DNA from: Nymphaea colorata
Taxonomy: Eukaryota; Streptophyta; Magnoliopsida; Nymphaeales; Nymphaeaceae
DNA length: 64,000 nucleotides
Direction: 5' to 3'
Assembly: GCF_008831285.2 (NCBI RefSeq)
Contig: NC_045147.1
Location: forward strand, 19,474,581 to 19,538,580
Of this stretch, positions 27,204 to 64,000 are shown in pieces (the stretch's first letter is position 1; each line of letters begins with the position of its first letter). Made by a program: the position numbers and the translations under genes. The notes under the pieces were generated by a model, which was given only the letters and a program-made list of their open reading frames with translations, was not told the origin of the DNA and made no database searches.

Positions 27204-27324
<121 letters not shown>

Positions 27325-28400: not shown

Positions 28401-28617
28401 AGGGGTGTTTGATAGCCACGGATCTAAGTGCAAGATGATTTGAGATCATTGGGAATTTCAGATTTTTAGTTTTAGGGTTTAAAGTTTAGGGTTTAGGGTT
28501 TACTGTCCAACCGCAAATATGAAGTTTAGTCATAGATAATGGTAAAATCCGCTGTTTGTTCACATAAAAAAATTTTAAATCTACATCCAACATGAGTTCC
28601 GAGCTATCAAACACACC
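28401..28617. mobile_element. Tourist-like (PIF/Harbinger) MITE containing telomere-type repeats
   Basis: Terminal inverted repeats GGGGTGTTTGATAGC and GCTATCAAACACACC bound a 217-bp element, each flanked by TTA (28398-28400 and 28618-28620). The TTA target site and a GGGxGTTTG-type end fit PIF/Harbinger MITEs. Inside, about 28466-28501 carries TTTAGGG-like units, including GTTTAGGGTTTAGGGTTTA. It has no coding capacity. Confidence 0.75.
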
Positions 28618-33725: not shown

Positions 33726-34682
33726 TTATCTGGAAGGGACAATGCCTTCATTTCCAGCCAAAACCAAGTATTTGTCCTTCCTTGTCAGCATGGTGCATTC
33801 AAAACCTAATGCATCTGCCAGCATCTTCTGCACATGGTTGGCCACTTCATACCTTGACCTATGACCCTCGGTGCATGTGAGCTCCTGAGGCAATTTCTCG
33901 AAGATCTCAACATAGTAGGCAGGGAAAGGGTTCATGAGGAAGAAGAGAGGGTCAAGGCACTTGAGTCCACTGGCCGTAGTACCGTAGAACATGCTCACCG
34001 AAACATTGAGTGCAACAGGCACTATTTCATCTGTGAGCTCAGCAAAGAGCGGGCTGAACCTCAGCAGGTAGGGCTCTCTGCAGGTGGTTCCTTCTGGACA
34101 CACGGCCAAGTCTCCCTTACTCAACAGGGACTTCATCTTCTCCCCATCTTTCATTCTGTCCCTGGTAAGCCTAGCCGTTCTGATTGGTGACAACAACTCG
34201 GAGATCCTGCTGAGGCTGTAGGTGACAGCAGTGACTGGCCTGTGGAGGGCGCCTGATAAGTAGAGTGGGTCCAGCAGTGTCCTGTGGTTGCACACATAGA
34301 GCACCCCACTTTCTCTGGTCCTCGGCGTGCCGTGAACCTTTAGCTGGAGGCTTAGGCCGAGGAATGAGCCCACAAACATGGCTATGCTGTACGGACAGAA
34401 GAGGCCCACCAGCGACCGGAGAATTGCCAGGAGGAAGCCTAGCGGCAGCCAGATGAACATGGCCAGAGTGGCCAGGGGAGTTGGCCGGAAGGCCAGCCTA
34501 CCATCATGGAAAATCAACGGCTTGGGATACATCTCTTTTGGTAGCGCCGTGCCTCTGCTTCTTTTCTCTGATGCACCCACCATGTAGGCCTCCTGCGCAA
34601 CAAATAAATGTGGAACATAAATGATCAACAGTGCCAGATCGGTAGGAATTTATTAGAAGCTCAGTTCCAACTGTCACACACA

Positions 34683-34723
<41 letters not shown>

Positions 34724-36300: not shown

Positions 36301-36384
36301 GCTGCTCTCTCGCCTTCTCTCCGTCTCTTTCTCTCGCTTCTGATCTATATCGGTTTGGCGAGGAGAAGGTGGAGGAGTGATGGT

Positions 36385-36393
36385 CCTTTTATA
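36385..36393 (-). promoter_or_regulatory. TATA box of the GPAT gene
   Basis: TATAAAAGG on the - strand lies 85 bp upstream of the start codon, leaving a 5' UTR of roughly 55-60 nt. The leader between is AG-rich (GAGAAAGAGACGGAGAG). Confidence 0.7.
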
Positions 36394-36409
36394 GTGCAAC
36401 TTTAGCATA

Positions 36410-43325: not shown

Positions 43326-43375
<50 letters not shown>
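43326..43375. repeat. (TA)n microsatellite
   Basis: About 25 uninterrupted TA units. Confidence 0.95.
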
Positions 43376-44800: not shown

Positions 44801-47599
44801 AACTCTTTTATCCTATATAAAATTTTGAAAAGTTGTATTTTAACCCTGTTAAAATTTTGAAACTTTAATTCGGCCCAACTCATGAATGTCTTAAAGGCGA
44901 ACACCATCGAGAGTCTCACGTTATAAGGGTTCAGCCATCGAGAGACGTGATCTGCTCTACGAAACAAACGGCGAACAGATCAAGTGAAGCATCCATCGTA
45001 GTCCAAGAAATGGCTTGCTAGGGGTACATTTAGACGTTCGAAACTATTCTTTGGTGTGAGAATATGTCTCGGGAATGACTGAAGAATTAAAATTCGTGAA
45101 TATTTTCCTGTAAAAGTTGATCTTTCGAAATCTAGAAAAATCAACCGTACTGTTTATGTTTCTCATTTGTTAACATGGCCGGCCCCGCTTTGCTAACAAT
45201 CCTTAAATACGAGTAAAACTTTGCTGAATTACAGTTCGACTGTACTGTTGCTTAAAAGAAATAACAACGTACAATACTATTTATTTTTCGCATAAGATTA
45301 AACAACAGTACTTCACATGAAATAATGAATATAATTTAGTACCTACCTTAATAAACGTACTTTGCGCACCTTATCTTATAGTTTGACTGAATAATCGGCG
45401 ACATATGTGCAGAACGTGAAGCATCATGGGAACAGAAGGCCGCAATTGAAGTGTGGGAAAAGCTTCGTTAATTTCCAGGCAATTTTTTCTTTTATAATCT
45501 CAAAAGGGAGCCGCACATTTTTGAGTTCCAGATATTTGACAAACTTAATTTTGTTGAAGACTATGACGTAGCAGCCTGACTTTGTTCTTCGAATTTGGTA
45601 AATTGTTGATATCCACAACATAGAAATTCGGTGACAGGGAAAAGGATGAGCAGAACCTGAAAACCGTGACCCGAGACCATCTGCGCTCCTGAATGAAGGC
45701 ACATGCATTTCTCGAAAAAGCAGGAAAAGTCGCGAAAGAAACTATTTCCAACGTAAACTTCTTGGGAAGTGGGGTCTTGAGAAACTTTGAGTGAGGAGAA
45801 AGCAGCAGGAGCACACAAACAGAACATGCATGCATGTGGATGATGCATGCATGCACGCACGCGCCAATCAATCTAGGTTGTTCCTAATATTCTTTTGGGT
45901 TTCAGGTGGTTAAGAATCAACATCATGGGATCTAATGAAATTCCAAAGACCGGAAATATTGCTAAGATTCAAAGACCTAGTGCATCAGGGAATTGTTATT
46001 GGAAATAAGTCTGAAATAAACACTTCTGAGAAATGTGATGTGTTATCTCCTCCAAATCAACACCATCGGTAATGTCCGTAGCTGTATCTTCCATGGATGT
46101 GGGTGAAAAATTCACTAGACCACGTTAAACCACTCATCTTTTATTTTTTCAAGAATTCTGTTGGGGTATTGAGATTTTGATCTTGTCCAACATAAGATGC
46201 CATTTGGTTGAGCATGAAAAGGATAGAATGGACGTTTAGTTAAGTTAGGTAAAAGTTAGGCTACATCTAAATCAAATCCAAACCGTACCCTATTTAAGTT
46301 AAAGGTCCTAATGAATCCAACCTCTGATGAAGTGGACGGTGCTGGCACTTCGCCGTGCCGGCAGTGGCATACAGGTCAATAACTTGTTCAGCTTGGATAT
46401 AGAGTGCACATATTAGTTAATTGGATATGCCGCCAACGCCATACATTAATGGATCGGAAACCTGCCAAATAGTGACGCACGTATCATGAATGTGATACAC
46501 TTTTTACCAAGTTAGGGTCTCAAGAGATCAAGTTTGGATCAGTTAGATACATAAGAAAACAGAGTGAAATAACTGGGGCAACCATACGTTAAAAAGTGCA
46601 GAATTTCAGAACCATTATCCATCTTTCTACATGTCTATGCCTTCTTTGAGAACGTCGAGCATGAAGTAAATAATCTACATAAATGAGAGTCATCTAAGCC
46701 TGATGAAGATAAATTTCATGAACATGTACTTGTGTTTAATCTCTAATTAGCTAATAAAATCTCTCACGGATCACCCGTCCAATGGGCATAACCTAGTCCA
46801 AGCTAATTTCCATTCAAAAATTTATTAGTATTATTAACGAGCTGAGGTAGAGCTTATTTTTGCCGAACTAAATAAGAAAGCACAGCGTATCAAATTAAAT
46901 GTGGACATCTTGAACTTGAACATCTTAATTAAGTCCGGCTGTAGCCCTTGCTAGCACAATAAAAATCAAAGACTTCAAACATGGGACTTGGACACCTTTG
47001 CTTATGGCATCTTAAACGGGTGCTACTGATCATATTCCATCTAAGTGGCTACGGCCGTACTGCCGACCCTTCTTCATCAAGCAGAATATTTTCTCAGTTA
47101 ATATCACCGATATAGTCGCCGGTATATGAATATGCCATATACTGTACGGCCTAAAAAGTCACCGTTGACGATCTTTAGGTCGCCAATCTATGGCGGTGAC
47201 GCCTTCCACCGTTGTAGCCAACCGGTCACACCTTCACCGCTGTAGCTCCAATGCATATCCGGTGACACTGCTGTAGCTTCGTTTTCTGCTTACATGGCAG
47301 TTTGGGGAAATATATAATGAAGACAAAATCAGAACTGGATATAATTACCATCAATCAAAGACCAGATCACATGCTTACCTTCACTGATTCACTTGGTTCC
47401 ACACAATGCCTAAAACTACCGTTGGATGAAGATCTCCATTGTTTGCTAAAAGCCTAAAATCCACCATGCCATTGACCTTGTCCAACTGCCAAGTGTCAAC
47501 TCTAAATCAGTGCAAAGTGAAAAGCAACAAGTGCTTTGGACTAGATAGAGTATCACTGCTCAAGCAGGTAGGAATGGCATTAAATTTTAAATAGAGCAG
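44801..47599. other. Intergenic region; no gene supported
   Basis: No recognisable coding frame. Between about 47100 and 47285 words such as TCACCG and CGGTGA recur in both orientations, which is common in subterminal regions of plant DNA transposons. No terminal repeats were found. Confidence 0.45.
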
Positions 47600-47740
47600 T
47601 AATAAAGTGTAACATAGAAAATGAATTCCAATTCTCAAGATACATGCGCCTTGCAGCTGCAATAGCTTCTTCAGTTAGTGGCTTTTGAATGAACCTCGCA
47701 TTGCATTTGATGGATCTTGACACCAACTGTTCCTGACAAG
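47600..47740 (-). other. Possible exon of an unrecognised gene
   Basis: On the - strand CTTGTCAG (a good acceptor) precedes an open segment reading EQLVSRSIKCNARFIQKPLT and then EEAIAAARRMYLENWNSF. It looks more protein-like than nearby frames (charged, helix-forming, little low complexity). A stop follows 12 residues later (TAA about 47582). I do not recognise the family and no neighbouring exon is certain, so this may be a terminal exon or chance. Confidence 0.3.
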
Positions 47741-47831
47741 CACAAATATGCATTATAAATTGCCTTTTTGAGACTAAACTACATAACATAGATGAACAGA
47801 CATAAAAATATTTTATCAAACCTATTGTCAT

Positions 47832-49599
47832 GTAACAATGTTTATCTGTAAATGGTGCATTAAATGTTAGGAAGTATCAACTTCTAGTCCATCAACCAGG
47901 GAATGGACATGACTGGAATAAGCATTCTTTGAAAAGCTTCCAGGATGTCATGTCCAGCAAGAATCACTACAACCACCAGCGTTCAATAACATCAGATGGA
48001 TGCAGGACCAACCCTAGCTCCTCTATCACCAGGTAATCATAAGATGCAAGTTACAGAAACAAATAATCTTTAAACAATGTTCTCAGGGTCTCATAATAGC
48101 TTCCTCATAGAAATCAAGAGAAGAAATACTGTATGCTTGAATATTCCATCTGTTAATACATCAATTAGTCGGTGCTCCTTAACAAGATTTTTCATCTATA
48201 TATATGGTTTCTAAGTGGTTCAACAACTTGTCTCCAGTTATCAGCACTTTGTTCTCTTTTACTGCCTCGTCACTATTACATCACTGGTAGGCTTAGGATA
48301 TCCACCAATTGACCAACCATGAAGCAATGTCTGGCCAATTGTTGTTCTCCTCTAACCATTCATTATTAAACTTTGAGAATCTTAAGGCTTTCTACTTTGC
48401 CTCTTCATCCAGCAGTCTTAGGATTTCTGTGGGATTCCTTCAAATGGATTTCTCTGCATAAGCATTTGAAATTGTAAGACAAAACTTTCAAAAGCATGGC
48501 TCGGTGTAGAAAATCATAGAATGATTGCATCCCTAACATGCAACCGAAGGAGAAAAGTGAAAAATATAAGGAAAAGAACATCGCATCATAGTTGTCAGAA
48601 GATGGGACAATATGAACACTAACTGTAGACACTTCACAAAATTTTCTTGAGGTATTCTAGTTGATATTTTGCAAGATTTAGTATGAACTACGATCGAGCT
48701 GTGGTTGTTAAACAGAGAACCATGAACTAGGATCAACATTGACAAGCAACACCAACTTTTCTATGCGCATTGTTTTGATAACCAAGCTTCCCACCCCATT
48801 CATCAAAGAATTGAAAGCAAGCATAGTTTTCACAATGAATCACAGTGTGCAAAGTAAAATCAGTCGACTTTCTTTTCCTTTATAAAGCCCTATATCAAAT
48901 TCCAGTATAAACTTCTACATCCTTTTTTTCTTTCGTTTTTCAGGTCTCCTCTCTTTCCTAAAATTGACAGGAGGATTGTTGTACAGAGAAAAAAAATGAG
49001 AGAGCAAGAGAAAAGATGGGTTTACGTGTGTGTGTGTGTGTGTGCATATATTTGTCCATTTATATTAGTAATGAATGATTGTAAAAGCATAAGAGCTATG
49101 CAGTAGTTAGGTGAGATGACTTAAAAACATTAAAAATGTCTTGAATTGGATACGTTAGATATTTCCTATGGCATTGCATGATAGAGACTCGAGAATCTTT
49201 TCTCTAAGAACAGTCAACAAATAGGCTGCAGAGTGCAGACACCTCAGTGTGGCTAAGATCAATGTGGCGCCACTTTATTGAATAATGAAAAATCTACAGT
49301 GAGCACTAAGGCGTAAGAACATCCTACTAAGTTTAATAGTGGATAGAAGAGGTTACCACTATAGTACTATACTGTTGTTCCTCTCCAAAACTCAAAATGA
49401 GCTTTCTGAACATGTTCGACCTGTCATTTGAAACATGTACTATACAGTTGGATATTTATAAGTGAACCTTTGATTGCCTAGACAATCTTTAGTTCATATA
49501 GGTTATCTTTGTACTGATGGCAGTTAGACATATGGTGAGGAAGTCCAGAACTGCCCTCACCACCACACACATTTTTATACTTGAAATCAGGTGAAAAAA
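47832..49599. other. Flank left of the composite retroelement; no gene supported
   Basis: AT-rich with a (GT)n run at 49027-49043. Short frames have no recognisable product. Confidence 0.5.
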
Positions 49600-49604
49600 G
49601 TTAT
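49600..49604. repeat. Target-site duplication (GTTAT), left copy
   Basis: GTTAT precedes the TG of the left outer LTR and is repeated directly after the CA-end of the right outer LTR at 60795-60799. Confidence 0.75.
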
Positions 49605-49795
49605 TGGAACAACCCGACCCACTCCTAGGCTCGGGCCCCTGGTTCGACGGATCCCAACCCGCCCCCTAGCAGTTTCGATTCCAATCCTAAAAAGGCTAGG
49701 AACCAAGACAATCATCTCATTAATAGCCTTCCTTTATAAGCCCTTGAAGATCCCTCACAATCTTCGATACGGGGCTAAACTTATGGGGTGTTACA
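49605..49795 (-). repeat. Left outer LTR (TRIM-type, 3' LTR)
   Basis: 191 bp; on the - strand it starts TGTAACACCCCATAAG and ends GGGTTGTTCCA. It differs from the right outer LTR by scattered substitutions and at its last three bases. Confidence 0.8.
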
Positions 49796-49858
49796 ATCCA
49801 CACCCCTTAAGGCACACGCGTCCGCGCGTGTGGGACCCCAGGTCCGAGTGTTGAACCG

Positions 49859-49870
49859 ACTCTGATACCA
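49859..49870 (-). promoter_or_regulatory. Primer-binding site between gypsy LTR and TRIM-type leader (left arm)
   Basis: On the - strand TGGTATCAGAGT lies four bases after the gypsy LTR end (GTGACA). The leader that follows is the TRIM-type one, not a gypsy gag leader. Confidence 0.8.
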
Positions 49871-49874
49871 AAGT

Positions 49875-52569
49875 TGTCACGACCCAATTTTTGACACCAT
49901 TTTTTTTTTCTTTCCATTTCTATAATAGCGGAAGCAACATTGAGTCATGACCAAACAGTTAAAATGAACACAAGTCCACAAATTACAGACGTAGTGCCCA
50001 GAATGCCAATGCCCGTCCATCACAAAGCCTGAGGTCGTCACTCCAAGAGCCGAAATCTATCAAAGACTACCTGTAGAGATAGAAAGAAGGGTCAGAGTTC
50101 CTCTGAGTATGGAGAAAATGAAGCCATGAATGGAACATGGCCCAATAAAATAATATTTTTCTTTTGTAAAACAAATATCTTCAAATCTTAGCACATATTG
50201 GAGTTACGTCACATTATCAGAAACAAAACGAAGTGTGCACAACCTCCAAAATTTCGTAGGCTTCCAACCGTGGTTCTCTGACAATGTCATGGTCATCGTG
50301 CCCAACAACAGAAATCCCCGTAGGCACTCACGGGCAGAACAAAACATTTCTTCACCAGGCGATCCAACGAATCGAGGGTACCCGCAGTGAAGCCTCCTGA
50401 GATATCCCAGATCGCCGCTGCAGCAGCATGGTCTCTCTAGGAACCCGGGGTGAGAGACCAGGAGACGTCTCGCTCCCAAACAGAAACAGAACAAAATCCC
50501 GGGCCCTTGTGCCGCCCAATACCCTGTGGGCCCTCCAGTACAGACAAAGGAGTGGGCGACAACAGTGAGCCTCGCGCACCACTACCTCCCGGGACAAAAC
50601 CAAACACTGGGCAACAACAAAAGCTCGCACTCACATAAACCATCGCACAAAGCCCACGTTTCGCCTTCGAATTTCAAATGTGAGGGTTTTTCCTTACTAG
50701 ACCTTGTCTAATACCCCTCTCAGAAACCGCCCTCAGGCTCGGTTTCCCAAACAGAAGCAATAGGCCATTTTCTAGTTCAATTTAATGGCAACAAAACAAA
50801 GTCGAGTTGACAATGCATCTATACAAGTATATTACGTTAAAAAATCTCACATAGTATGTTGTAATCATCGTATAGAACAAAAGATTTCCGAACCCTTATT
50901 CTGAAATTTTAAATAAAACTAAGGGTACCACAAAGCAATAATACATAACAATTCATTTTTTTACTGAAATTTCAAACAAATATATGGAAACCCTCTTTTG
51001 GTGATTTCTAAGAACTCGGAAGGTGTTATTTCGTATGAGATATTAGGCTTATATTGAAAAGAACTTTTACGAGCCTCTTTTTGCAAAAGATTTTCATTAA
51101 AGTGTTGCGGCATGAGTGCTTAAAAATTATAACAGCTTTTTCGTAAATTTTGCTAATAAGGTGGACCCGTTTTGTAATTTTTTTGAGTTTTGTTATAAAA
51201 ACGGATCACACTCGTTTTTCTTCATTTCTCGCCCTTGTTTTCTCTCTCTCCGCACGAGAGCTCCTCCCCTCCGCTCGTTCGACCGACGGTGGCTTCCACC
51301 GCTTCTTCAACAACACAAAATCAGCAACAGGGAGGGACTTCTTCCCGTGAGTACCAACGCGAGGGTTCCACGTCGCCGCGCACCATCCGACCGACAGTGG
51401 AGCTTCCACCGGCGCGCCACCACTTCCCGTCGTCTTCAAAGGGGGAACGAACCCGGGAGAGAGAGTTGTCTTCCTCTCAAGCCATCTCTGTCCAGCGGCA
51501 GCGACAGTCGCCGCCGACCAGCCCAGAGAGCAAAATGGGGCAGCAGAAACCCACGACCCGTCCTCGGTTTCTCTCAACACAAAGAGGGTGTAGGTAGGTT
51601 CCGGTGGTTGCAATAGTGGACTGGTCGAGGGCAACCAGTCTCTCACGGTGTTCCCCTCTCTTGAAGCCCTCAGGTAAAAGCAAGAGTGAAGAAAACAAGA
51701 GAACGTCTCTTCTGTTGGTGTCAGTGGCAAAGGAAAAAGAGTCATGGGCATCGTTGTTCACGGAGGTGGACGTCCGAACAGAAGTGTTCGTCCATCATCA
51801 GAGATTTGGGAATGTGGCCCAATCTCACGGGGATAAATCATACCCGTTATCCTTTATTTTCGCAACTTTGATATCACCATTCATACATGCATGACTATGT
51901 TTATCCCTCTGTTTCTCTTCTATGGTTGTTTTGAATCCTCTTCCAGAGCCCTCAAATTAGAGAGACATGCCCTGTTAAGGGTCGTTTGTGGTTTTGATTT
52001 TCTCACATGAATTGCACAGCATAATACATGAACTCGAAGCTTTCAAAACCCAATTAGACGAGCATATCATACATTGCATATATGAATCTAACATGCTTTA
52101 TTTCTAGAACCTCATGCTTGGATTCATCTCTAGGCATATGCATATACAGATTCACTTATAAACATAACTACCCACTGAAAATCAACCAAGAAATATACGA
52201 CTACATGCTTCATTCAAAACTGAAATTTCCCATACCTTTGAAAATCTGAAGCAGACTTCCAGCAACAACCTCGTTCCTTCTCAACGGCCACCAATCTCAA
52301 ACTCAACAAAAAGAAGAGCAAAAGTGAGGACGTCCCTCACTCTCTCTCTATTGCTGAACTCTCTCGTTTAGTGTTGCAGCAAAACGAGTGATTAGTTGTT
52401 GTAAATTGTGGTTAAATAAGCCCTTTTCAAGTCTCCCCAAATTACCATACGAGTTTCGCTTTTAGTTTCTTTTCCCCCCACTCCATTTCCCCTTTGCAGT
52501 TATAACCTCCCATTATGGTAAACGTGACGGTTACAAAAAGATAAGGGAAACGAAATCGTGGGTCTTACA
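49875..52569 (-). repeat. Gypsy LTR, left arm
   Basis: About 2.7 kb, TGTAAGACCC...GGGTCGTGACA read on the - strand. The length is in the range of Tekay/Del chromovirus LTRs. A GC-rich block near 51230-51700 gives long frames on both strands, but none resembles a known protein. The mirror copy is 57553-60246. Confidence 0.9.
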
Positions 52570-53905
52570 TCCTTCCCCCCTAAAAAGAAATTTCGTCCTC
52601 GAAATTTGAGTGTACCTTATTGAAACAATTGGGGATAACTCTTTCGCATGTCTTCTTCTGGCTCCCACGTACATTCTTTGCTGCCATTCCACTTGAACTA
52701 GTGGGATGGTCTTCTTCCGCAACACATGCTCCTTCCGATCTATGATCCGAAGCGGTTTTTCCTCTGTTGTCATGTCCTCTTGCAAATCAACTTCTTCGTA
52801 GTCTATCACATGCGAAGGATCAGGTATATACTTCCTTAGCATCGACACGTGAAATACTGGATGAACATGACTATACTGCGGTGGAAGTGCAATTCGATAT
52901 GCAACCTCGCCAACTTTTTCCAGAATCTCGAACAGACCAATGTATCTTGGGCTCAATTTCCCCTTCTTTTCGGATCGAAAAACACTCTTGGTGGGTGATA
53001 TCTTGACAAATACATGATCTCCTGCTTCAAAAGCTAGCTCTCTTCGTCGTTGGTCTGCATAACTTTTTTGTCGACTCTGAGCAGCCAAAAGTTTCTTTCT
53101 AATCATGTTGACCTGATCAGTGTAATGTTGGATCACCAAAGGGTCCTCAATCTTGTTGTCTCCTATCTCAGTCCAACATGATGGTGATCTACAAGGTCGG
53201 CCATAAAGAGCTTCGAATGGAGCCATTCCAATGCTAGAATGATAACTGTTGTTGTAGGCAAATTCGGCCAACTTTACATGTTTATCCCATTTACCCTTCC
53301 ATTGCAACACACATACTCTTAATCAAGAGTCTGAATGGTTCGCTCAGATTGCCCATCTGTTTGCGGATTAAATGTTGTACTCAGTTTCAATTTTGTTTCC
53401 AACGCTTCCTGTAATTTTCTCCAAAACTTGGATGTAAATCTTGGATCTCTGTCGGAGATGATTGATTTAGGGATTCCATGCAGTCTCACAATTTCATCAA
53501 CATATAAATCAGCTAGACTTTCAAGTGATTGCGAAATCTTGATGAGAAGGAAATGTACGGATTTAGTTAGTCGGTCCACCACTACCCAAATAGCATCGTG
53601 CTGTCGTCGAGTACGTGGTAACCCCACTACGAAATCCCTGGTGATGTCTTCCCATTTTCATGGAGGAATTCTATTTGTTGCATCAAACCACCTGGTTTCT
53701 GATGTTTTACTTTAACCTGTTGGCACACCAAACATCGTGAGACGAACTCAGCGATCTCTTTCTTCATTCCTGGCCACCAAAAGTTTATTCTTAAATTTTG
53801 GTACATCTTGGTGCTTCCCGGATGTATAGTATAACTCGCTTTGTGTGTCTCTTCAAGCAGCTTGTTTTTCACCTCTGGATCATTCGTAACCCACAATCTA
53901 CCGTT
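52531..53905 (-). pseudogene. Gypsy integrase and chromodomain segment, left arm
   Basis: Three frames in succession: 53896-53627 holds the HHCC zinc-binding region (HPGSTKMYQ, CLVCQQVK); 53627-53319 holds the integrase core (WVVVDRLTKS, SDRDPRF, QTDGQSERT); 53310-52531 holds the rest of the core (HSSIGMAPFEALYGR), the GPY/F region and a weak chromodomain-like tail (RIIDRKEHVLRKKTIPLVQVEW, quoted by its end LVQVEW). Breaks lie between HENGK and GLPRTR (frameshift) and after QTLD (stop and shift). The architecture is that of a Ty3/gypsy chromovirus, probably Tekay/Del. The final frame runs past the purine tract into the LTR. The same breaks occur in the right arm. Confidence 0.92.
52570..52581 (-). 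promoter_or_regulatory. Polypurine tract of the gypsy element, left arm
   Basis: Reads AGGGGGGAAGGA on the - strand, directly before the LTR. Confidence 0.9.
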
Positions 53906-53996
53906 TTGCGAAATGCTGTTTTGGGAATATCTTCATCCTTAATTCGCAATTGATGGTATCCCGACCTCAAGTCTATCTTAGAAAACACTTTTGCTT
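53906..53996 (-). pseudogene. Reverse-transcriptase N-terminal fragment, left arm
   Basis: On the - strand it reads [20 protein letters not shown] and then EDIPKTAFR, the first part of the RT palm. It is joined directly to integrase sequence (GRLWVTND), so the rest of RT and RNase H is missing at this join. The missing part lies alongside in the opposite orientation. Confidence 0.85.
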
Positions 53997-53997
53997 C

Positions 53998-54775
53998 CTT
54001 TCGCACACGTTATGGGCATTATGAGTTTCGAGTGATGCCTTTTGGACTCACAAATGCCCCAGCAGCTTTTATGGATCTCATGAATCAGATATTTCACGAG
54101 TACTTAGACCGATTCGTTATAGTGTTCATTAACGATGTGCTAGTATACTCAGAGTGTGAAGCAATGCATGCGGCACATCTCGAGATAGTGATGAAGATAT
54201 TGAGACAAAATCAACTGTATGCTAAATATTCCAAGTGAGTTTTGGCTAGACAAAGTGAATTTCTTGGGACACGTAATCTCTAAGGAGGGAGTGGCAGTTG
54301 ATCCGGCCAAAGTGAAAGCTGTACAATAATGGGATGCGCCAACTAATGTGTCAGAAATCAGAAGTTTTCTTGACTTGGCAGGTTACTACAGGAAGTTCAT
54401 CAAAGATTTTTTGAAAATTGCAATCCCAATGACTAAACTGGTATGGAAAGGAGTGAAATTTACGTGGACAGAAGATTGCCAGAAGAGTTTTCAGATATTG
54501 AAAGACAGTTTGACTAGTGCCCCAATTCTAACACTGCCAAATGGGAGGAAAGGATTTGTTGTATATACCTATGCTTTAGGAACAGGTTACGGAGCGGTGC
54601 TTATGCAAAAGGACAATGTTATAGCTTATGCCTCTAGGCAATTAAAACAACACGAGAAGAACTATCCAACACATGATTTGGAATTAGGAGCTGTGGTATT
54701 TGCATTAAAAATATGGAGACATTACCTTTATGGTGTGGAATTTGAAGTATTTTTTTACCACAAATCACTCAAATT
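53998..54775 (+). pseudogene. RT C-terminal and RNase H fragment, left arm, inverted relative to integrase
   Basis: It starts at TTTCGCACACG ([10 protein letters not shown]), exactly where the N-terminal RT fragment stops. The RT motif normally ending in two Asp reads [10 protein letters not shown], so the first catalytic Asp is Asn. A frameshift follows QLYAKYSK, and a TAA interrupts KAVQ-WDAPTN. The RNase H part begins at [16 protein letters not shown]; its first catalytic region reads YTYALGTG, where an Asp is usual, and HKSLK is preceded by FY in place of TD. The segment is therefore dead. It ends in LTR-derived sequence at about 54780. Confidence 0.9.
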
Positions 54776-55345
54776 CTCGTGGGAAGGAACGAGGTTGTTG
54801 CTGGAAGTCTGCTTCAGATTTTCAAAGGTATGGGAAATTTCATTACCTCTATTTTCAAAGGTATGGGAAATTTCAGTTTTGAGTGATTTGTGGTAAAAAA
54901 ATACTTCAAATTCCACACCATAGAGGTAATGGAATTTGCATTAAAAATATGGAGACATTAGGATGGAATGAAATTTCCCATACCTGACATTGTCCTTTAA
55001 TGCAGGTATGGGAAATTTCATTCCATCCTAATGTCTCCATATTTTTAATGCAAATTCCATTACCTCTATGGTGTGGAATTTGAAGTATTTTTTGGTGTGG
55101 AATTTGAAGTATTTTTTTACCACAAATCATATGGGAAATTTCATTCCATCCTAATGTCTCCATATTTTTAATGCAAATTCCATTGCCTCTATGGTGTGGT
55201 ATGGTGTGGAATTTGAAGTATTTTTTTACAACAAATCACTCAAAACTGAAATTTCCCATACCTTTGAAAATAGAGGTAATGAAATTTCCCATACCTTTGA
55301 AAATCTGAAGCAGACTTCCAGCAACAACCTCGTTCCTTCCCACGA
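54776..55345. repeat. Mosaic centre of the palindrome
   Basis: Short pieces recur in both orientations: the RNase H tail (ATGTCTCCATATTTTTAATG ... GTGGAATTTGAAGTATTTTTTTACC) and a piece of the gypsy LTR (AGGTATGGGAAATTTCA). A perfect sub-palindrome with arms of about 100 bp is centred near 54995. The non-symmetric spacer between the large arms is about 54982-55133. A 60-bp LTR piece (GAACGAGGTTGTTGCTGG..., as at 57845) is fused to RNase H on each side. Confidence 0.85.
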
Positions 55346-55346
55346 G

Positions 55347-56124
55347 AATTTGAGTGATTTGTGGTAAAAAAATACTTCAAATTCCACACCATAGAGGTAA
55401 TGTCTCCATATTTTTAATGCAAATACCACAGCTCCTAATTCCAAATCATGTGTTGGATAGTTCTTCTCGTGTTGTTTTAATTGCCTAGAGGCATAAGCTA
55501 TAACATTGTCCTTTTGCATAAGCACCGCTCCGTAACCTGTTCCTAAAGCATAGGTATATACAACAAATCCTTTCCTCCCATTTGGCAGTGTTAGAATTGG
55601 GGCACTAGTCAAACTGTCTTTCAATATCTGAAAACTCTTCTGGCAATCTTCTGTCCACGTAAATTTCACTCCTTTCCATACCAGTTTAGTCATTGGGATT
55701 GCAATTTTCAAAAAATCTTTGATGAACTTCCTGTAGTAACCTGCCAAGTCAAGAAAACTTCTGATTTCTGACACATTAGTTGGCGCATCCCATTATTGTA
55801 CAGCTTTCACTTTGGCCGGATCAACTGCCACTCCCTCCTTAGAGATTACGTGTCCCAAGAAATTCACTTTGTCTAGCCAAAACTCACTTGGAATATTTAG
55901 CATACAGTTGATTTTGTCTCAATATCTTCATCACTATCTCGAGATGTGCCGCATGCATTGCTTCACACTCTGAGTATACTAGCACATCGTTAATGAACAC
56001 TATAACGAATCGGTCTAAGTACTCGTGAAATATCTGATTCATGAGATCCATAAAAGCTGCTGGGGCATTTGTGAGTCCAAAAGGCATCACTCGAAACTCA
56101 TAATGCCCATAACGTGTGCGAAAG
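55347..56124 (-). pseudogene. RT C-terminal and RNase H fragment, right arm
   Basis: Mirror copy of 53998-54775 with the same FIND motif, the same frameshift and TAA, and the same YTYAL change. The 68-residue RT frame (56090-55884) is identical to its partner. Confidence 0.9.
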
Positions 56125-56125
56125 G

Positions 56126-56216
56126 AAGCAAAAGTGTTTTCTAAGATAGACTTGAGGTCGGGATACCATCAATTGCGAATTAAGGATGAAGATATTCCCA
56201 AAACAGCATTTCGCAA
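56126..56216 (+). pseudogene. Reverse-transcriptase N-terminal fragment, right arm
   Basis: Mirror copy of 53906-53996, joined on the + strand to the integrase segment. Confidence 0.85.
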
Positions 56217-57591
56217 AACGGTAGATTGTGGGTTACGAATGATCCAGAGGTGAAAAACAAGCTGCTTGAAGAGACACACAAAGCGAGTTATACTATACAT
56301 CCGGGAAGCACCAAGATGTACCAAAATTTAAGAATAAACTTTTGGTGGCCAGGAATGAAGAAAGAGATCGCTGAGTTCGTCTCACGATGTTTGGTGTGCC
56401 AACAGGTTAAAGTAAAACATCATAAACCAGGTGGTTTGATGCAACAAATAGAATTCCTCCATGAAAATGGGAAGACATCACCAGGGATTTCGTAGTGGGG
56501 TTACCACGTACTCGACGACAGCACGATGCTATTTGGGTAGTGGTGGACCGACTAACTAAATCCGTACATTTCCTTCTCATCAAGATTTCGCAATCACTTG
56601 AAAGTCTAGCTGATTTATATGTTGATGAAATTGTGAGACTGCATGGAATCCCTAAATCAATCATCTCCGACAGAGATCCAAGATTTACATCCAAGTTTTG
56701 GAGAAAATTACAGGAAGCGTTGGAAACAAAATTGAAACTGAGTACAACATTTAATCCGCAAACAGATGGGCAATCTGAGCGAACCATTCAGACTCTTGAT
56801 TAAGAGTATGTGTGTTGCAATGGAAGGGTAAATGGGATAAACATGTAAAGTTGGCCGAATTTGCCTACAACAACAGTTATCATTCTAGCATTGGAATGGC
56901 TCCATTCGAAGCTCTTTATGGCCGACCTTGTAGATCACCATCATGTTGGACTGAGATAGGAGACAACAAGATTGAGGACCCTTTGGTGATCCAACATTAC
57001 ACTGATCAGGTCAACATGATTAGAAAGAAACTTTTGGCTGCTCAGAGTCGACAAAAAAGTTATGCAGACCAACGACGAAGAGAGCTAGCTTTTGAAGCAG
57101 GAGATCATGTATTTGTCAAGATATCACCCACCAAGAGTGTTTTTCGATCCGAAAAGAAGGGGAAATTGAGCCCAAGATACATTGGTCTGTTCGAGATTCT
57201 GGAAAAAGTTGGCGAGGTTGCATATCGAATTGCACTTCCACCGCAGTATAGTCATGTTCATCCAGTATTTCACGTGTCGATGCTAAGGAAGTATATACCT
57301 GATCCTTCGCATGTGATAGACTACGAAGAAGTTGATTTGCAAGAGGACATGACAACAGAGGAAAAACCGCTTCGGATCATAGATCGGAAGGAGCATGTGT
57401 TGCGGAAGAAGACCATCCCACTAGTTCAAGTGGAATGGCAGCAAAGAATGTACGTGGGAGCCAGAAGAAGACATGCGAAAGAGTTATCCCCAATTGTTTC
57501 AATAAGGTACACTCAAATTTCGAGGACGAAATTTCTTTTTAGGGGGGAAGGATGTAAGACCCACGATTTCGTTTCCCTTATCTTTTTGTAA
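56217..57591 (+). pseudogene. Gypsy integrase and chromodomain segment, right arm
   Basis: Mirror copy of 52531-53905 in frames 56226-56495, 56495-56803 and 56812-57591. It has the same two breaks. One visible amino-acid difference is KHHKPGG here against KHQKPGG in the left arm. Confidence 0.92.
57541..57552 (+). promoter_or_regulatory. Polypurine tract of the gypsy element, right arm
   Basis: AGGGGGGAAGGA directly before the LTR start TGTAAGACCC. Confidence 0.9.
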
Positions 57592-60246
57592 CCGTCACGT
57601 TTACCATAATGGGAGGTTATAACTGCAAAGGGGAAATGGAGTGGGGGGAAAAGAAACTAAAAGCGAAACTCGTATGGTAATTTGGGGAGACTTGAAAAGG
57701 GCTTATTTAACCACAATTTACAACAACTAATCACTCGTTTTGCTGCAACACTAAACGAGAGAGTTCAGCAATAGAGAGAGAGTGAGGGACGTCCTCACTT
57801 TTGCTCTTCTTTTTGTTGAGTTTGAGATTGGTGGCCGTTGAGAAGGAACGAGGTTGTTGCTGGAAGTCTGCTTCAGATTTTCAAAGGTATGGGAAATTTC
57901 AGTTTTGAATGAAGCATGTAGTCGTATATTTCTTGGTTGATTTTCAGTGGGTAGTTATGTTTATAAGTGAATTATATATGCATATGCCTAGAGATGAATC
58001 CAAGCATGAGGTTCTAGAAATAAAGCATGTTAGATTCATATATGCAATGTATGATATGCTCGTCTAATTGGGTTTTGAAAGCTTCGAGTTCATGTATTAT
58101 GCTGTGCAATTCATGTGAGAAAATCAAAACCACAAACGACCCTTAACAGGGCATGTCTCTCTAATTTGAGGGCTCTGGAAGAGGATTCAAAACAACCATA
58201 GAAGAGAAACAGAGGGATAAACATAGTCATGCATGTATGAATGGTGATATCAAAGTTGCGAAAATAAAGGATAACGGGTATGATTTATCCCCGTGAGATT
58301 GGGCCACATTCCCAAATCTCTGATGATGGACGAACACTTCTGTTCGGACGTCCACCTCCGTGAACAACGATGCCCATGACTCTTTTTCCTTTGCCACTGA
58401 CACCAACAGAAGAGACGTTCTCTTGTTTTCTTCACTCTTGCTTTTACCTGAGGGCTTCAAGAGAGGGGAACACCGTGAGAGACTGGTTGCCCTCGACCAG
58501 TCCACTATTGCAACCACCGGAACCTACCTACACCCTCTTTGTGTTGAGAGAAACCGAGGACGGGTCGTGGGTTTCTGCTGCCCCATTTTGCTCTCTGGGC
58601 TGGTCGGCGGCGACTGTCGCTGCCGCTGGACAGAGATGGCTTGAGAGGAAGACAACTCTCTCTCCCGGGTTCGTTCCCCCTTTGAAGACGACGGGAAGTG
58701 GTGGCGCGCCGGTGGAAGCTCCACTGTCGGTCGGATGGTGGGCGGCGACCTGGAACCCTCGCGTTGGTACTCACGGGAAGAAGTCCCTCCCTGTTGCTGA
58801 TTTTGTGTTGTTGAAGAAGCGGTGGAAGCCACCGTCGGTCGAACGAGCGGAGGGGAGGAGCTCTCGTGCGGAGAGAGAGAAAACAAGGGCGAGAAATGAA
58901 GAAAAACGAGTGTGATCCGTTTTTATAACAAAACTCAAAAAAATTACAAAACGGGTCCACCTTATTAGCAAAATTTACGAAAAAGCTGTTATAATTTTTA
59001 AGCACTCATGCCGCAACACTTTAATGAAAATCTTTTGCAAAAAGAGGCTCGTAAAAGTTCTTTTCAATATAAGCCTAATATCTCATACGAAATAGCACCT
59101 TCCGAGTTCTTAGAAATCACCAAAAGAGGGTTTCCATATATTTGTTTGAAATTTCAGTAAAAAAATGAATTGTTATGTATTATTGCTTTGTGGTACCCTT
59201 AGTTTTATTTAAAATTTCAGAATAAGGGTTCGGAAATCTTTTGTTCTATACAATGATTACAACATACTATGTGAGATTTTTTAACGTGATATACTTGTAT
59301 AGATGCATTGTCAACTCGACTTTGTTTTGTTGTCATTAAATTGAACTAGAAAATGGCCTATTGCTTCTGTTTGGGAAACCGAGCCTGAGGGCGGTTTCTG
59401 AGAGGGGTATTAGACAAGGTCTAGTAAGGAAAAACCCTCACATTTGAAATTCGAAGGCGAAACGTGGGCTTTGTGCGATGGTTTATGTGAGTGCGAGCTT
59501 TTGTTGTTGCCCAGTGTTTGGTTTTGTCCCGGGAGGTAGTGGTGCGCGAGGCTCACTGTTGTCGCCCACTCCTCTGTCTGTACTGGAGGGCCCACAAGGT
59601 ATTGGGCGGCACAAGGGCCCGGGATTTTGTTCTGTTTCTGTTTGGGAGCGAGACGTCACCTGGTCTCTCACCCCGGGTTCCTAGAGAGACCATGCTGCTG
59701 CAGCGGCGATCTGGGATATCTCAGGAGGCTTCACTGCGGGTACCCTCGATTCGTTGGATCGCCTGGTGAAGAAATGTTCTGTTCTGCCCGTGAGTGCCTA
59801 CGGGGATTTCTGTTGTTGGGCACGATGACCATGACACTGTCAGAGAACCACGGTTGGAAGCCTACGAAATTTTGGAGGTTGTGCACACCTCGTTTTGTTT
59901 CTGATAATGTGACGTAACTCCAATATGTGCTAAGATTTGAAGATATTTGTTTTACAAAAGAAAAATATTATTTTATTGGGCCATGTTCCATTCATGGCTT
60001 CATTTTCTCCATACTCAGAGGAACTCTGACCCTTCTTTCTATCTCTACAGGTAGTCTTTGATAGATTTCGGCTCTTGGAGTGACGACCTCAGGCTTTGTG
60101 ATGGACGGGCATTGGCATTCTGGGCACTACGTCGGTAATTTGTGGACTTGTGTTCATTTTAACTGTTTGGTCATGACTCAATGTTGCTTCCGCTATTATA
60201 GAAATGGAAAGAAAAAAAAAATGGTGTCAAAAATTGGGTCGTGACA
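57553..60246 (+). repeat. Gypsy LTR, right arm
   Basis: 2694 bp, TGTAAGACCC...GTGACA, nearly identical to the left-arm LTR in inverted orientation. Because the two LTRs face in opposite directions, they cannot be the two ends of one normal element. Confidence 0.9.
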
Positions 60247-60250
60247 ACTT

Positions 60251-60345
60251 TGGTATCAGAGTCGGTTCAACACTCGGACCTGGGGTCCCACACGCGCGGA
60301 CGCGTGTGCCTTAAGGGGTGTGGATTGTAACACCCCATAAGTTTA
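60251..60345 (+). other. PBS and TRIM-type leader after the right gypsy LTR
   Basis: TGGTATCAGAG follows the LTR after four bases. The leader then carries the GC hairpin CACACGCG-n4-CGCGTGTG (60289-60308), a purine tract (TTAAGGGGTG) and the LTR start TGTAACACCCC. The same leader occurs at 49796-49870 and 60526-60602 in the other orientation. Confidence 0.8.
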
Positions 60346-60360
60346 GTCCCGTATCGAAGA

Positions 60361-60510
60361 TTGTAACACCCCATAAGTTGGGTCCAAATGTTTTCTTATT
60401 GAAATAAAACAATGTCTGATTTCTTTATGTTTTGGTCATGACTCAATGTTGCTTCCGCTATTATAGAAATGAAAAGAAAAAAAATTGGTGTCAAAAATTG
60501 GATCGTGACA
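60361..60510 (+). repeat. Junction debris with a second, diverged gypsy LTR end
   Basis: 60361-60426 contains another TGTAACACCCCATAAG start followed by unique sequence. About 60428-60510 is a partial copy of the last 80 bp of the gypsy LTR in + orientation (TTGGTCATGACTCAATG ... GGATCGTGACAACTT) with several differences from 60168-60250. Confidence 0.8.
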
Positions 60511-60590
60511 ACTTATGGGGTGTTACAATCCACCCCCCTTAAGGCACACGCGTCCGCGCGTGTGGGACCCCAGGTCCGAGTGTTGAACCG

Positions 60591-60602
60591 GCTCTGATAC
60601 CA
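60591..60602 (-). promoter_or_regulatory. Primer-binding site of the outer TRIM-type element
   Basis: TGGTATCAGAGC on the - strand, one base after the right outer LTR, complementary to initiator Met tRNA. Confidence 0.85.
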
Positions 60603-60603
60603 C

Positions 60604-60794
60604 TATAACAACCCGACCCACTCCCGGGCTCAGGCCCCTGGTTCGACGGATCCCAACCCGCCCCCTAGCAGTTTCAGTTCCAATCCTAAAAAGGCTAGGA
60701 ACCAGGACAATCATCTCATTAATAGTCTTCTTTTATAAGCCCTTGAAGATCCCTCACAATCTTCGATACGGGACTAAACTTATGGGGTGTTACA
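60604..60794 (-). repeat. Right outer LTR (TRIM-type, 5' LTR)
   Basis: 191 bp, colinear with the left outer LTR with scattered substitutions. On the - strand it starts TGTAACACC and ends GTTGTTATA, where the left copy has GTTGTTCCA. GTTAT follows on the + side at 60795-60799. Confidence 0.8.
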
Positions 60795-60799
60795 GTTAT

Positions 60800-62939
60800 G
60801 GAGGGGGAAGCCTCACTTTCTTCACTTGCTAGCGTAACAGAGAGCACTATCAAGGCAGCCAAGTTATCCTTGAAAAGTATAATAAGTACTGAATACTAAT
60901 TTATGACCAATCAGTTAGTTACTCCCTTAAACAGAATCCAATTTTCAGATCGATAAATTAATAACACCCTTAAACAAAATCCAATTTCCGGTAATGTGGG
61001 TCTTCTACACATCAATGTGTCTTTGGCCCTTCATTCAAGTCATGTTGAAGATTTGTACATCTAAGCATGCTGGTGAAAGCATTTGAGGTTTTATAAATCC
61101 AAGCATGCTTTTATTGTTGGCGTGGTCCAAAAGCTAACCAACATAAAATATATATATATTGGCATTAAGAATTTAAGAGTTTCTTAGAGCAGGAAATTTT
61201 TGACAGAGCTTAGAAGTTTAGTCTTTTTTACTTTTTTTAAAAACAGATCCTGTTACTAATGAAGAGTTTCAGTTCGTGGGGAAATCACATGCAAATTCAG
61301 AAGTGAAAAGTATGTGCAAAATTCAAACACCAGAAGGTATACAAAGGTAAAACATAAGAACTTGATCACAAAATTCTGAAATGCTTTTCACGATTCGTGT
61401 GGCCTTCAAAAGAAAAATGAAATTACAACCTTTCCATAGTTGCAGCAATATTCATTACTACCACAAAACCTAACTTTTAATGTTTCTTGCATAGGGTCAT
61501 TAGATGAGGACAACAAACCATTGAATGTTGAAGTTAATTATTGGTCTATAATCATCGAAATTCTAAGCTCCTGAGGATGAGCAGCTGTTTCTGATCATTA
61601 TACCAGCTTCTATGGGATCATATTTTGTAGAAAAGACTCAAAAATGTTGAATTGAGATCATCACAAATCTGAACAAATTTATGAATCCCAACATGAAGAC
61701 CATCTCCTTCTCTCTCTCTCTCTCTCTCCCCCCCCCCTTCTCTCTTCATTTTTTCAGACAGCATATTGAGGTGTTTGAAAAATCAGGTGTAGACTAATAA
61801 TGAAACAGAGGAGAAGGATCAAGTATGAAAGATCATATGAGAATTAGAGAATAGGATGTATGGCCTCCGAGCAACAAGATTTCACCAGAGCTGCGAGAAA
61901 AGAGCAAATAGACGAAATACAGTAGAGAGAGACGGAAAAGAACAGAGAGAGCAAGTTCGACCCAAAACATCAGTTTTTCCCAATTGAAGAAAAAGGAAAA
62001 ACTCTATTCCTACTTATCAAATCATAGAGCACTATCAATAGCAAGCAACAAAATGAGAAATTGCCAAGAGTGAGACAAGGAAGCAAATTAGACATATACC
62101 CTTCAATCCAAACATCTTGTGCAAATCCAAGGAGGCACATAGAGGCTGGTATTTTGAACTAGTTTAGTGTGGAAAAATAGCATGTCAAAATAAACAGCGA
62201 AATAAGTTCTTATGCAGTACATATTCTGAGACTAAAGCTTCATTTTCATGAACTATCAAACAAAGATCCCGTTGATGGACAAAAAAGTGTCTAGTCTACT
62301 GCATTCATGAAAATGAATGCCAATCTATTTTACCATGATAGCAAATTTAATTTCGTTCAGTTTTTTCTTAAAAATTTTGAGATGAGTAACAAGGTCCAGA
62401 AAACAAGAGTCATTATCTCACATACATAGTCCAATGAGACTCCTGCTTCATACATATGAACATAACCTATATCTACAGCTACATTAATCACAAGAGGGCA
62501 ACACAAATTACTCACCTTATCCAAGATTCAATGATGGAGCCATTGACTTGTGAATGTATGAGAATGATAAACAAAGGAAGCCTTTTCAAGTCAAATGATG
62601 AGTTTTCCTCTCAAATGGCATCCACACTGAATCTTGCCACTGATACACAAATGTAATACAACAAAAACGTAAATAAAGTATGAAAAAGTACATGAAGTGA
62701 TTATTGTAAATATATGCCAAAGCTTTTTCAGAATGACTAAGATGATCTTCAACCAATTTATTACGAGCAAAATCATCTCAAAAGAAGAGCCACACAACAA
62801 GCTGATTGCAACCAAAAACTGCATGACACCAAATACTGTATAACTAACGCCAAAGGCAAAAGAAAATTGGATATGACATAGCCACATTTAAATATATCTT
62901 ACTTTTCGATTATAACACAGATTGCACAAGGAGGCAAAC
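60800..62939. other. Flank right of the composite retroelement; no gene supported
   Basis: A CT-rich run ending in CCCCCCCC lies at about 61709-61738. Short minus-strand segments near 60808-60865 (open, reading KDNLAALIVLSVTLASEE) and 62115-62160 look weakly protein-like. I cannot link them to each other or to a family. Confidence 0.4.
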
Positions 62940-63004
62940 CTTGATACTCTGGGACCACCCAGGAGTAGACGTTGAGTCTGACAAACCTTATCAATGAAAA
63001 AATT
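62940..63004 (-). other. Possible exon of an unrecognised gene
   Basis: On the - strand AATGCAG precedes an open 65-nt segment reading NFFIDKVCQTQRLLLGGPRV, followed by a GT donor (TCAAG|GTTTGC). It may belong with the candidate exon at 47600-47740, which would place the composite retroelement in an intron of that gene. This is inference from two short segments. Confidence 0.25.
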
Positions 63005-64000
63005 CTGCATTTAGGAGACATGTTGCCACAAAGATCCAATTTCAAAATTTCACTAGTTCACTATAGTCTGCATATGATGCACAAAATGCATAAATAAGTG
63101 TGTCAAAAGAATATAAATTTGTTCAGATCATAAAACACTGCTTCTCTTAATGCAAGTGTATCCTAGATCAGAATTAAATCAAGACTAATAACAAGTACAA
63201 AGGCCAACCCCTGCTCAACAAGAGAAATTAGAGTCACATTTTCACCAAATTTGGCTTCACAGAATTTAGATTATCCAAGTCTGAACCATTTATATTCATG
63301 GTTAGGAAGCAAGAACATTTAGAGCATCTCCTGCTCAAGGGAGAAAAAGACAAAATGAATAGCAAGGGACCAACAAGTCCATCTTCAACCAATGCGGTAC
63401 AAGTGGTCGGAAATCACCAATTACCCATGCAAATATACTCTTAAGGTTTAAACCTCACAAAAAGTTCCCACTTAAGAACAGAGCCCTATTCAACCGCATA
63501 TGCAGTTCAACCCAAATGTGGAACTACAGTATAACTTCTATTAGTTATTTCTGATAACGATAACATGTTTTGCTAGTGGTTCTTACCCTGAGGGGTTGAT
63601 CTTCTTTTCACTACAAGCAAATATCAAGGCACAACTTCTATCAGTTATTTCTAATAACAACTTTAACTTTTATCTGTTTTACCAGTGAATTTTTACCCTT
63701 ACGGGATTGTCTTTTTTCCACTGGATGCAAATATCAACATTCATTATTGTGTATATACTATGAACTATGAAGCATATAAGGCACGACACCAACTCAGTCG
63801 ATCACAATACACTGGAATTTACCTCAAAAAGCAGCCACATCAAACGACGTCAGTTACTGAACAACCAACTATTTCTCACCAATTTAGAAACAAATCATGG
63901 TCAAAGCTTGGTTATGACATTTTACCATCAAATCCGTGTCACAAAGATACAGGGAAACTTGATTTATAAAATTGGGGAGTAACTTAAATACGTAGAGAGA
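63005..64000. other. AT-rich sequence; nothing supported
   Basis: No recognisable gene or element. A short direct repeat occurs (CTTCTATTAGTTATTTCTGATAAC near 63535 and a similar run near 63636, quoted by the core AGTTATTTCT). Confidence 0.5.

Follow-up and report, generated by a model that had tools for sequence, protein, structure and literature searches.

A palindrome of Ty3/gypsy-derived sequence within a short-LTR insertion of Nymphaea colorata

Chimeras of long terminal repeat (LTR) retrotransposons formed by template switching, with a single 5-bp duplication, are described from wheat relatives, rice and maize (PMC1950507). Terminal-repeat retrotransposons in miniature (TRIM) are defined by terminal repeats of 100-250 bp, a primer-binding site (PBS) and a polypurine tract (PPT) in an element of <1000 bp (PMC6934838); the Veju TRIM is reported in a review to have acquired foreign sequence via template switching (PMC13317346), and the PBS quoted for the Cassandra elements of plants is TGGTATCAGAGC (PMC7215508). 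In maize, the inverted-duplication transposon locus Mu killer can silence its family, and the discussion of the same paper proposes shorter antisense transcripts, not a long hairpin, as a new model (PMC3440606). Among the open-access PMC papers listed in literature searches, none had a palindromic LTR retrotransposon in its title or in the first lines of its abstract. Here we describe a stretch of 64,000 nucleotides of Nymphaea colorata (NC_045147.1, positions 19,474,581 to 19,538,580; hereafter the window), which contains a large palindrome of mainly Ty3/gypsy-derived sequence within what is best read as one LTR-retroelement insertion, 49605-60794.

The palindrome and the insertion that encloses it

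When the window was compared with itself by BLAST, a single large inverted pair was found, 49757-54982 and 55130-60364, and the runner-up among the inverted pairs listed was a 199 bp pair located within the palindrome centre. The arms align over 5236 columns with 99.43% identity, 19 mismatches and 2 gap openings (1 base and 10 bases), and were returned by an ungapped repeat finder as 52150-54922/55200-57972 and 49757-52146/57975-60364. The palindrome is real, and the near-perfect structure of ~10.6 kb noted in an earlier sequence-only reading was confirmed by this alignment, as was its pairing rule, with x to 110121-x fitting the outer part of the arms and x to 110122-x the inner part. The head-to-head arrangement, with gypsy domains and an LTR in each arm, was likewise borne out.

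The description as built from a gypsy retrotransposon needs extension, since the structure does not derive from one gypsy element alone. The real integrated unit is larger than the palindrome and is enclosed by a single GTTAT duplication, and its outer frame is formed by another element, which has short LTRs and a PBS and PPT of its own (Table 1). Equal 5-mers at the spacing of the GTTAT copies occur at 74 of 52795 window positions. As in LTR retrotransposons generally, 49605-60794 has direct terminal repeats, TG...CA outer ends, a short target-site duplication, a PBS and a PPT. The two copies of its terminal repeat, LTR1, are identical at 180 of 191 positions (94.2%), without gaps, and both lie on the minus strand. 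On that strand the PBS-like motif TGGTATCAGAGC is found at 60591-60602, one base past the 5' LTR1 copy, and the purine-rich TTAAGGGGTGTGGAT directly precedes the 3' copy at 49796-49810. The 75-bp block from PBS to PPT at 49796-49870 matches the right-arm copy at 60251-60325 in 75/75 positions and the right-outer copy at 60528-60602 in 73/75, and the PBS-like motif of the arms, TGGTATCAGAGT, is one base off the motif quoted for Cassandra. LTR1 also contains CTTATAAA, which we take to be TATA-like. The unit is thus a chimera in which a TRIM-like short-LTR frame is joined to the 3' part of a Ty3/gypsy element; an ordinary short copy of the LTR1 element was not found within the window.

The terminal pattern of 49605-60794 matches that of an ordinary copia element in the same window. 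The latter, at 8227-13622 on the minus strand, is a Ty1/copia element whose two LTRs, each of 476 bp, are identical and which is flanked by an ATGAC duplication; its two long contiguous frames for gag-integrase (927 aa) and reverse transcriptase (RT; 475 aa) are in the same register with one stop between them, and it is a recent insertion.

An assembly or sequencing artefact, from a missed hairpin adapter or a fold-back chimera, would account for an inverted repeat with microhomology turn-points, which is typical of such artefacts. An adapter artefact would mirror the flank as well; the flanks here are unlike, 45001-49604 and 60800-64000 giving no match to each other, and the adapter origin was judged unlikely since the flank sequences are not mirrored. 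The arms are separated by 19 substitutions, of which 13 are transitions, and by just 2 indels, the two ends of the structure are not symmetrical and the duplication encloses all of it, all of which speak against an artefact, and we regard one as quite improbable.

Read from the centre outward, the order in each arm is RNase H and downstream RT on one strand and then, on the other strand, an upstream RT piece, integrase, a PPT and a long gypsy LTR (LTR2), beyond which follow ACTT, the PBS-like motif, a short leader with a PPT behind it, and the first 39 bp of LTR1. The LTR, integrase, RT and RNase H that had been proposed as arm content were all present, while the RT proved not to be intact, its halves lying on opposite strands. 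At the reversal point, 53993/53994, the halves stand back-to-back, with residues 21-48 of the related protein P0340 on the minus strand (53994-53911) and residues 46-126 on the plus strand. The upstream fragment, RT5 (84-87 bp per arm), was also matched by P0303 residues 10-38 at 53994-53908, with E ~1e-11, and by itself was weaker against Ty3 (residues 678-706, E 0.023) and PF00078 (positions 64-96, 20.5 bits, below cut-off). The downstream fragment, RT3, matched Ty3 residues 705-780 (E 4.2e-12) and PF00078 positions 106-188. P0303, P0340 and P0342 all showed this split, and the last of the four RT relatives compared, P0329, starts too late for the upstream piece. With respect to integrase, PF17921 and PF24626 were detected together with PF00665 at 26.3 bits, below its cut-off of 32.6, and tblastn with P0033 followed the left copy through frames -3, -2, -1 and -2 between 53902 and 52623. 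The first open frame of the left integrase overlaps the RT5 piece and the final one continues across the PPT into LTR2. LTR2 is called an LTR by its structure, as it sits between the integrase-side PPT and the PBS; a full LTR2 copy outside the palindrome was not found in the window.

When protein relatives were mapped onto both arms, the right arm showed the identical RT break, RT piece-integrase fusion and frame changes as the left, with frame changes at 54235/54237, 53672/53669, 53322 and 52676 in both arms. It follows that the arms are copies of each other. These frame changes, together with the reading FIND (D to N) of the RT motif opposite YLDD of Ty3, mean that either the gypsy source was already decayed or the arms decayed in concert. 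The domain order of Ty3/gypsy elements, with RT, RNase H and integrase on one strand, was not found, RNase H and integrase being on opposite strands in each arm; judged by its sequence, the gypsy part of the arm is a rearranged Ty3/gypsy derivative, not an ordinary member. Residues 1-43 of P0342, the start of RT, had no match in 49501-60900 at E 0.01, and gag and protease gave no Pfam match in the small number of frames that were scanned, without a query aimed at either. The coding parts seen are broken, so that the unit is not expected to provide proteins of its own.

A pair of independent gypsy insertions, oppositely oriented within an older element, was also weighed, as inverted neighbours and nests are frequent in plant genomes. 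Both arms are truncated alike and have the same RT reversal, the same fusion of RT to integrase and the same frame changes, the PBS-leader-PPT-LTR1 series is mirrored at both outer ends, and the LTR2 borders lack a direct duplication (AAAGT vs ACTTT). Because the scramble junctions and frame changes are common to both arms, two independent insertions are refuted unless one copy derived from the other, and this origin was rejected as extremely improbable; the sequence-only reading had rightly held ordinary nested insertion to be inadequate. A palindromic gypsy dimer simply inserted into LTR1 was rejected as well, since there is no direct duplication at the LTR2 borders and the palindrome continues through the PBS, the leader, the PPT and 39 bp of LTR1.

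The best 120 relatives listed were at 51-73% identity in one protein search and at 49-70% in the search with the chimeric RNase H-LTR2 tail; those listed from named organisms were from plants, with one exception labelled Klebsiella in the tail search, and several listed relatives carry chromodomain PF00385. This kind of gypsy element presumably belongs to the Tekay/Del clade. A multicopy palindromic non-autonomous family, still mobile in this structure, would be in keeping with the complete LTR1 ends and the presence of PBS, PPT and duplication. The RNase H-LTR2 tail, on the other hand, was not covered at high identity in the best 120 of 8000 scored proteins (the highest identity was 70%, over 79% of the query, and the widest coverage 91%, at 58% identity), and a hairpin of 5 kb would probably impede reverse transcription; we give such a family only a slim chance.

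Table 1. Features of the insertion and its palindrome, with positions in the window
Feature	Coordinates	Strand	Remarks
Target-site duplication GTTAT, left copy	49600..49604		exact 5-bp match to 60795-60799, directly outside LTR ends
LTR1, 3' copy, outer short-LTR element	49605..49795	-	191 bp, TGTAAC...TTCCA on minus strand
PBS-like motif, short leader, PPT-like tract	49796..49870	-	PBS-like TGGTATCAGAGT (TGGTATCAGAG at 49860-49870); PPT-like TTAAGGGGTGTGGAT (49796-49810)
ACTT spacer, LTR2 end to PBS	49871..49874	-	read directly
LTR2, long gypsy 3' LTR, left arm	49875..52569	-	ends TGTAAGACCC...GGGTCGTGACA, ~2.7 kb
Integrase region, left arm	52531..53932	-	H2C2, rve core and SH3_Tf2-1 domains; several frame changes
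Gypsy PPT, left arm	52570..52581	-	AGGGGGGAAGGA
RT5, upstream RT fragment, left arm	53908..53994	-	
RT3, downstream RT fragment, left arm	53993..54235	+	opposite strand to RT5
RT connection and RNase H, left arm	54237..54776	+	P0340 residues 128-307; PF17919, PF17917; homology stops ~54776
Centre mosaic	54777..55345		short fragments of RNase H and LTR2, in either orientation
RT connection and RNase H, right arm	55346..55885	-	
RT3, right arm	55887..56129	-	
RT5, right arm	56128..56214	+	
Integrase region, right arm	56220..57591	+	left-arm frame changes repeated; final open frame enters LTR2
Gypsy PPT, right arm	57541..57552	+	
LTR2, right arm	57553..60246	+	
PBS-leader-PPT and first 39 bp of LTR1	60251..60364	+	outer end of right palindrome arm
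Restart at LTR1 beginning	60359..60379	+	6-bp GATTGT common to junction, 60359-60364
Stretch ending as second, slightly different LTR2	60380..60514	+	LTR2 part from 60431; ends GTGACAACTT
LTR1 beginning, PPT, leader, PBS, right-outer copy	60510..60602	-	98% to 49778-49870
LTR1, 5' copy, outer short-LTR element	60604..60794	-	direct repeat of 49605-49795
Target-site duplication GTTAT, right copy	60795..60799		matches left copy

Junctions, divergence and origin of the palindrome

The off-centre spacer of about 150 bp that had been described corresponds to an existing 147-bp interval, but it is not a simple spacer, as the true axis, an inner hairpin and a direct duplication on the right side lie inside. 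The inner hairpin pairs 54896-54986 with 55003-55093 around a loop of 16 nt (54987-55002), with the true axis at ~54995, and the spacer appears off-centre because ~123 bp are directly duplicated on the right of the axis (55007-55129/55130-55238). In the left half of the centre, six exact donor matches to the arm, of 60, 32, 45, 27, 17 and 12 bp, were found within ~220 bp, one neighbouring pair overlapping by 5 bp. At the right-hand end, 60380-60430 had no match elsewhere in the window and is perhaps from another LTR2 subfamily, and the 5 bp AACTT at 60510-60514 are common to the second LTR2 end and the outer element. Overlaps of 5, 6 and 5 bp were found at three junctions. LTR2 meets the LTR1 element twice, at 60240-60251 (mirrored in the left arm) and at 60505-60514, each time as LTR2 followed by ACTT. 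In the standard scheme of reverse transcription, minus-strand DNA starts at the edge of the primer-binding site, and the ending of LTR2 at ACTT in these two places, and in two only, is our best hint of reverse transcription.

The most likely origin, to which we give about an even chance, is a template-switched, folded-back reverse transcript that was integrated once. Reverse transcription as the setting and the order of steps are what we infer. A short-LTR, TRIM-like RNA (LTR1-PBS-leader-PPT-LTR1) and a decayed Ty3/gypsy RNA would have been reverse transcribed within one particle, the polymerase switching template at the primer-binding site from LTR2 to the LTR1 element. A template change inside RT would have produced the strand reversal at 53993/53994, and several further switches would have followed within the 220-230 bp ahead of the axis. 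At the centre the nascent strand would have folded back and been copied outward until 39 bp inside LTR1, giving head-to-head arms, after which two more jumps at 5-6 bp of common sequence would have led to an LTR1 end. The product, then with two LTR1 ends, would have been inserted by integrase, leaving the 5-bp duplication, and the arms may since have been partly homogenised by gene conversion. Consistent with this sequence of events are the duplication directly outside TG...CA direct repeats, the PBS-like motif inside the 5' LTR1 and the PPT-like tract before the 3' LTR1, the position of both LTR2-LTR1 element borders at ACTT, the reversal, fusion and frame changes common to both arms, the overlaps at three junctions, and the six exact donor matches in the centre. 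As in template-switch complexes, one duplication surrounds the whole.

A number of points weigh against a folded-back reverse transcript. Repair of DNA breaks likewise produces strand reversals and microhomology jumps. The five other junctions in the centre are without overlap and have 6, 8, 11, 8 and 1 unmatched bases (54777-54782, 54843-54850, 54923-54933, 54961-54968 and 54986), and the shortest donor match, of 12 bp, may be due to chance. The gypsy element itself may have supplied the first LTR2-ACTT-PBS border, the switch then having occurred within the PBS or beyond it; the AACTT of the second border belongs to LTR1 too, and microhomology alone could be sufficient there. Outer LTRs that are highly similar, a criterion given for template-switch complexes (PMC1950507), are not well matched by the 94.2% found here. 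A single round of reverse transcription should leave the two LTRs identical, and the LTR1 divergence therefore calls for two parent templates or for conversion of the arms within an old insertion.

The LTR1 pair differs at 11/191 positions, 10 of them transitions, and the arms at 19/5226, 13 of them transitions, a difference in divergence with Fisher p = 2.4e-9, where the left LTR1 has 39 of its 191 positions in common with the arm. The arm differences are uneven, with 14 in the outer 1644 bp and 5 in the inner 3582 bp (p = 1.9e-4, the cut at 51400 having been chosen post hoc). The longest stretches with no more than 0, 1, 2 and 3 substitutions are 1551, 2580, 3347 and 3511 bp, lengths that were attained in 487, 19, 0 and 2 of 20000 random placements, respectively. 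Stretches of arm identity thus go beyond what a uniform clock would give, as in gene-converting palindromes, a pattern which a two-template origin yields as well. These data would fit partial gene conversion in an older insertion, two parent templates, or a palindrome that formed later than its frame. The earlier proposal that the palindrome is young or homogenised by gene conversion fits the uneven differences, with the restriction that "young" covers the arms and, given the more divergent LTR1 pair, not necessarily the whole insertion. The LTR1 pair, outer arms and inner arms are internal clocks at the locus which could separate the age of the insertion from gene conversion.

The same divergence bears on a close rival, which we consider a real though lesser possibility, in which the palindrome arose at the DNA level within an older chimeric LTR1 insertion, already with its duplication, by an internal double-strand break, a fold-back of one broken end at a short inverted repeat, copying of its arm outward through repair synthesis, jumps at short homologies and rejoining with the other end. 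Such an origin directly accounts for an old LTR1 pair (11/191) together with young arms (19/5226), and the centre resembles repeated short templated insertions with and without microhomology. The frame changes common to both arms and the D to N change at the YLDD-aligned motif imply an arm source that was already decayed, unless decay was concerted, which also fits this origin. Two features count against it: both LTR2 borders lie at the edge of the primer-binding site, a position not favoured by DNA breaks, and every breakpoint falls within the element.

Other database scans and features of the window

No Rfam match was obtained at gathering thresholds, and ARAGORN with the bacterial code gave 0 matches. 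A DNA pattern for the start of LTR1 had 0 matches in viral contigs, and a pattern for the LTR2-PBS border had 0 matches in prokaryote genomes and viral contigs, collections that are uninformative on plants. The RNase H piece gave 2 pattern matches in viral contigs, neither encoding a relative, and the integrase piece gave 2 matches in Bacillus plasmids by tblastn, at 27-28% identity and without annotation.

Elsewhere in the window, two minus-strand frames at 33726-36411 encode an acyltransferase and a RAM2-like HAD domain and are probably exons of one GPAT (GPAT/RAM2-like) gene; the best public match of the HAD frame was 93% over 82%, with the other listed matches at 40-55%. An internal plant-type telomere repeat, TTTAGGG, is present at 28471-28502 (~4.6 copies, 84% matches), and perfect TA runs at 27205-27300 (48 copies) and 43327-43375 (24.5 copies).

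A possible hairpin RNA and comparison with described systems

A transcript from the right-hand LTR1, as a putative promoter, would cross both arms and should fold into a hairpin of ~5 kb. For minus-strand RNA of 54700-55440, the predicted fold was -516 kcal/mol vs a mean of -159 in 20 shuffles, a strength due to the sequence being palindromic. Silencing by this locus is a prediction; the insertion looks like an uncommon outcome of processes already known and might serve as a naturally occurring hairpin RNA. We advance as a rather doubtful extension that fold-back cDNA can be a successful substrate for integration in plants and brings its own putative LTR promoter to a 5 kb hairpin. If this were true, reverse transcription itself would yield palindromic elements with two usable LTR ends, and a ready-made silencing trigger would be directed at both families, gypsy and short-LTR, together. 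Inverted transposon duplications are one proposed route to the first recognition of a mobile family by plants, and if palindromes arise in reverse transcription and integrate, silencing triggers would need no chance chromosomal rearrangement.

With regard to known systems, the arms resemble plant Ty3/gypsy elements of chromovirus type in their RT, RNase H and H2C2/rve/SH3 integrase, and differ in that the start of RT is unmatched, RT is split and inverted, and frame changes are present. The frame resembles TRIM elements in its 191-bp terminal direct repeats, the PBS right behind the repeat, the PPT ahead of the 3' repeat and the 75 bp from PBS to PPT; the unit of ~11 kb, however, far exceeds <1000 bp and holds ~10.7 kb of mainly palindromic gypsy sequence. 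Veju, with its reported gain of foreign sequence by template switching, is a comparison case for the short-LTR frame (PMC13317346). The complex insertions of Sabot and Schulman (2007, PMC1950507) are closest in being chimeras of two elements with one 5-bp duplication and an extra internal LTR; those described there have three LTRs, two complete cores and outer LTRs of high similarity, whereas the present insertion has an inverted, scrambled and truncated interior between outer LTRs that are 94% alike. An inverted arrangement is not mentioned there, a count of "inverted", "inversion" and "palindrom" in the main text of that paper giving 0 for each. Mu killer, as described in PMC3440606, is likewise a natural inverted transposon duplication with a potential long hairpin RNA, but it concerns a DNA transposon with documented silencing, while the present inverted duplication lies inside one integrated retroelement frame, its silencing effect being a prediction. 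Finally, in the large palindromes of the willow W chromosome, which gene conversion keeps uniform, the arms are likewise more similar than would be expected from their age; according to the account in PMC7023750 they have 20-kb gene-bearing arms on a sex chromosome and conversion was tested between species, in which they are unlike the palindrome described here.

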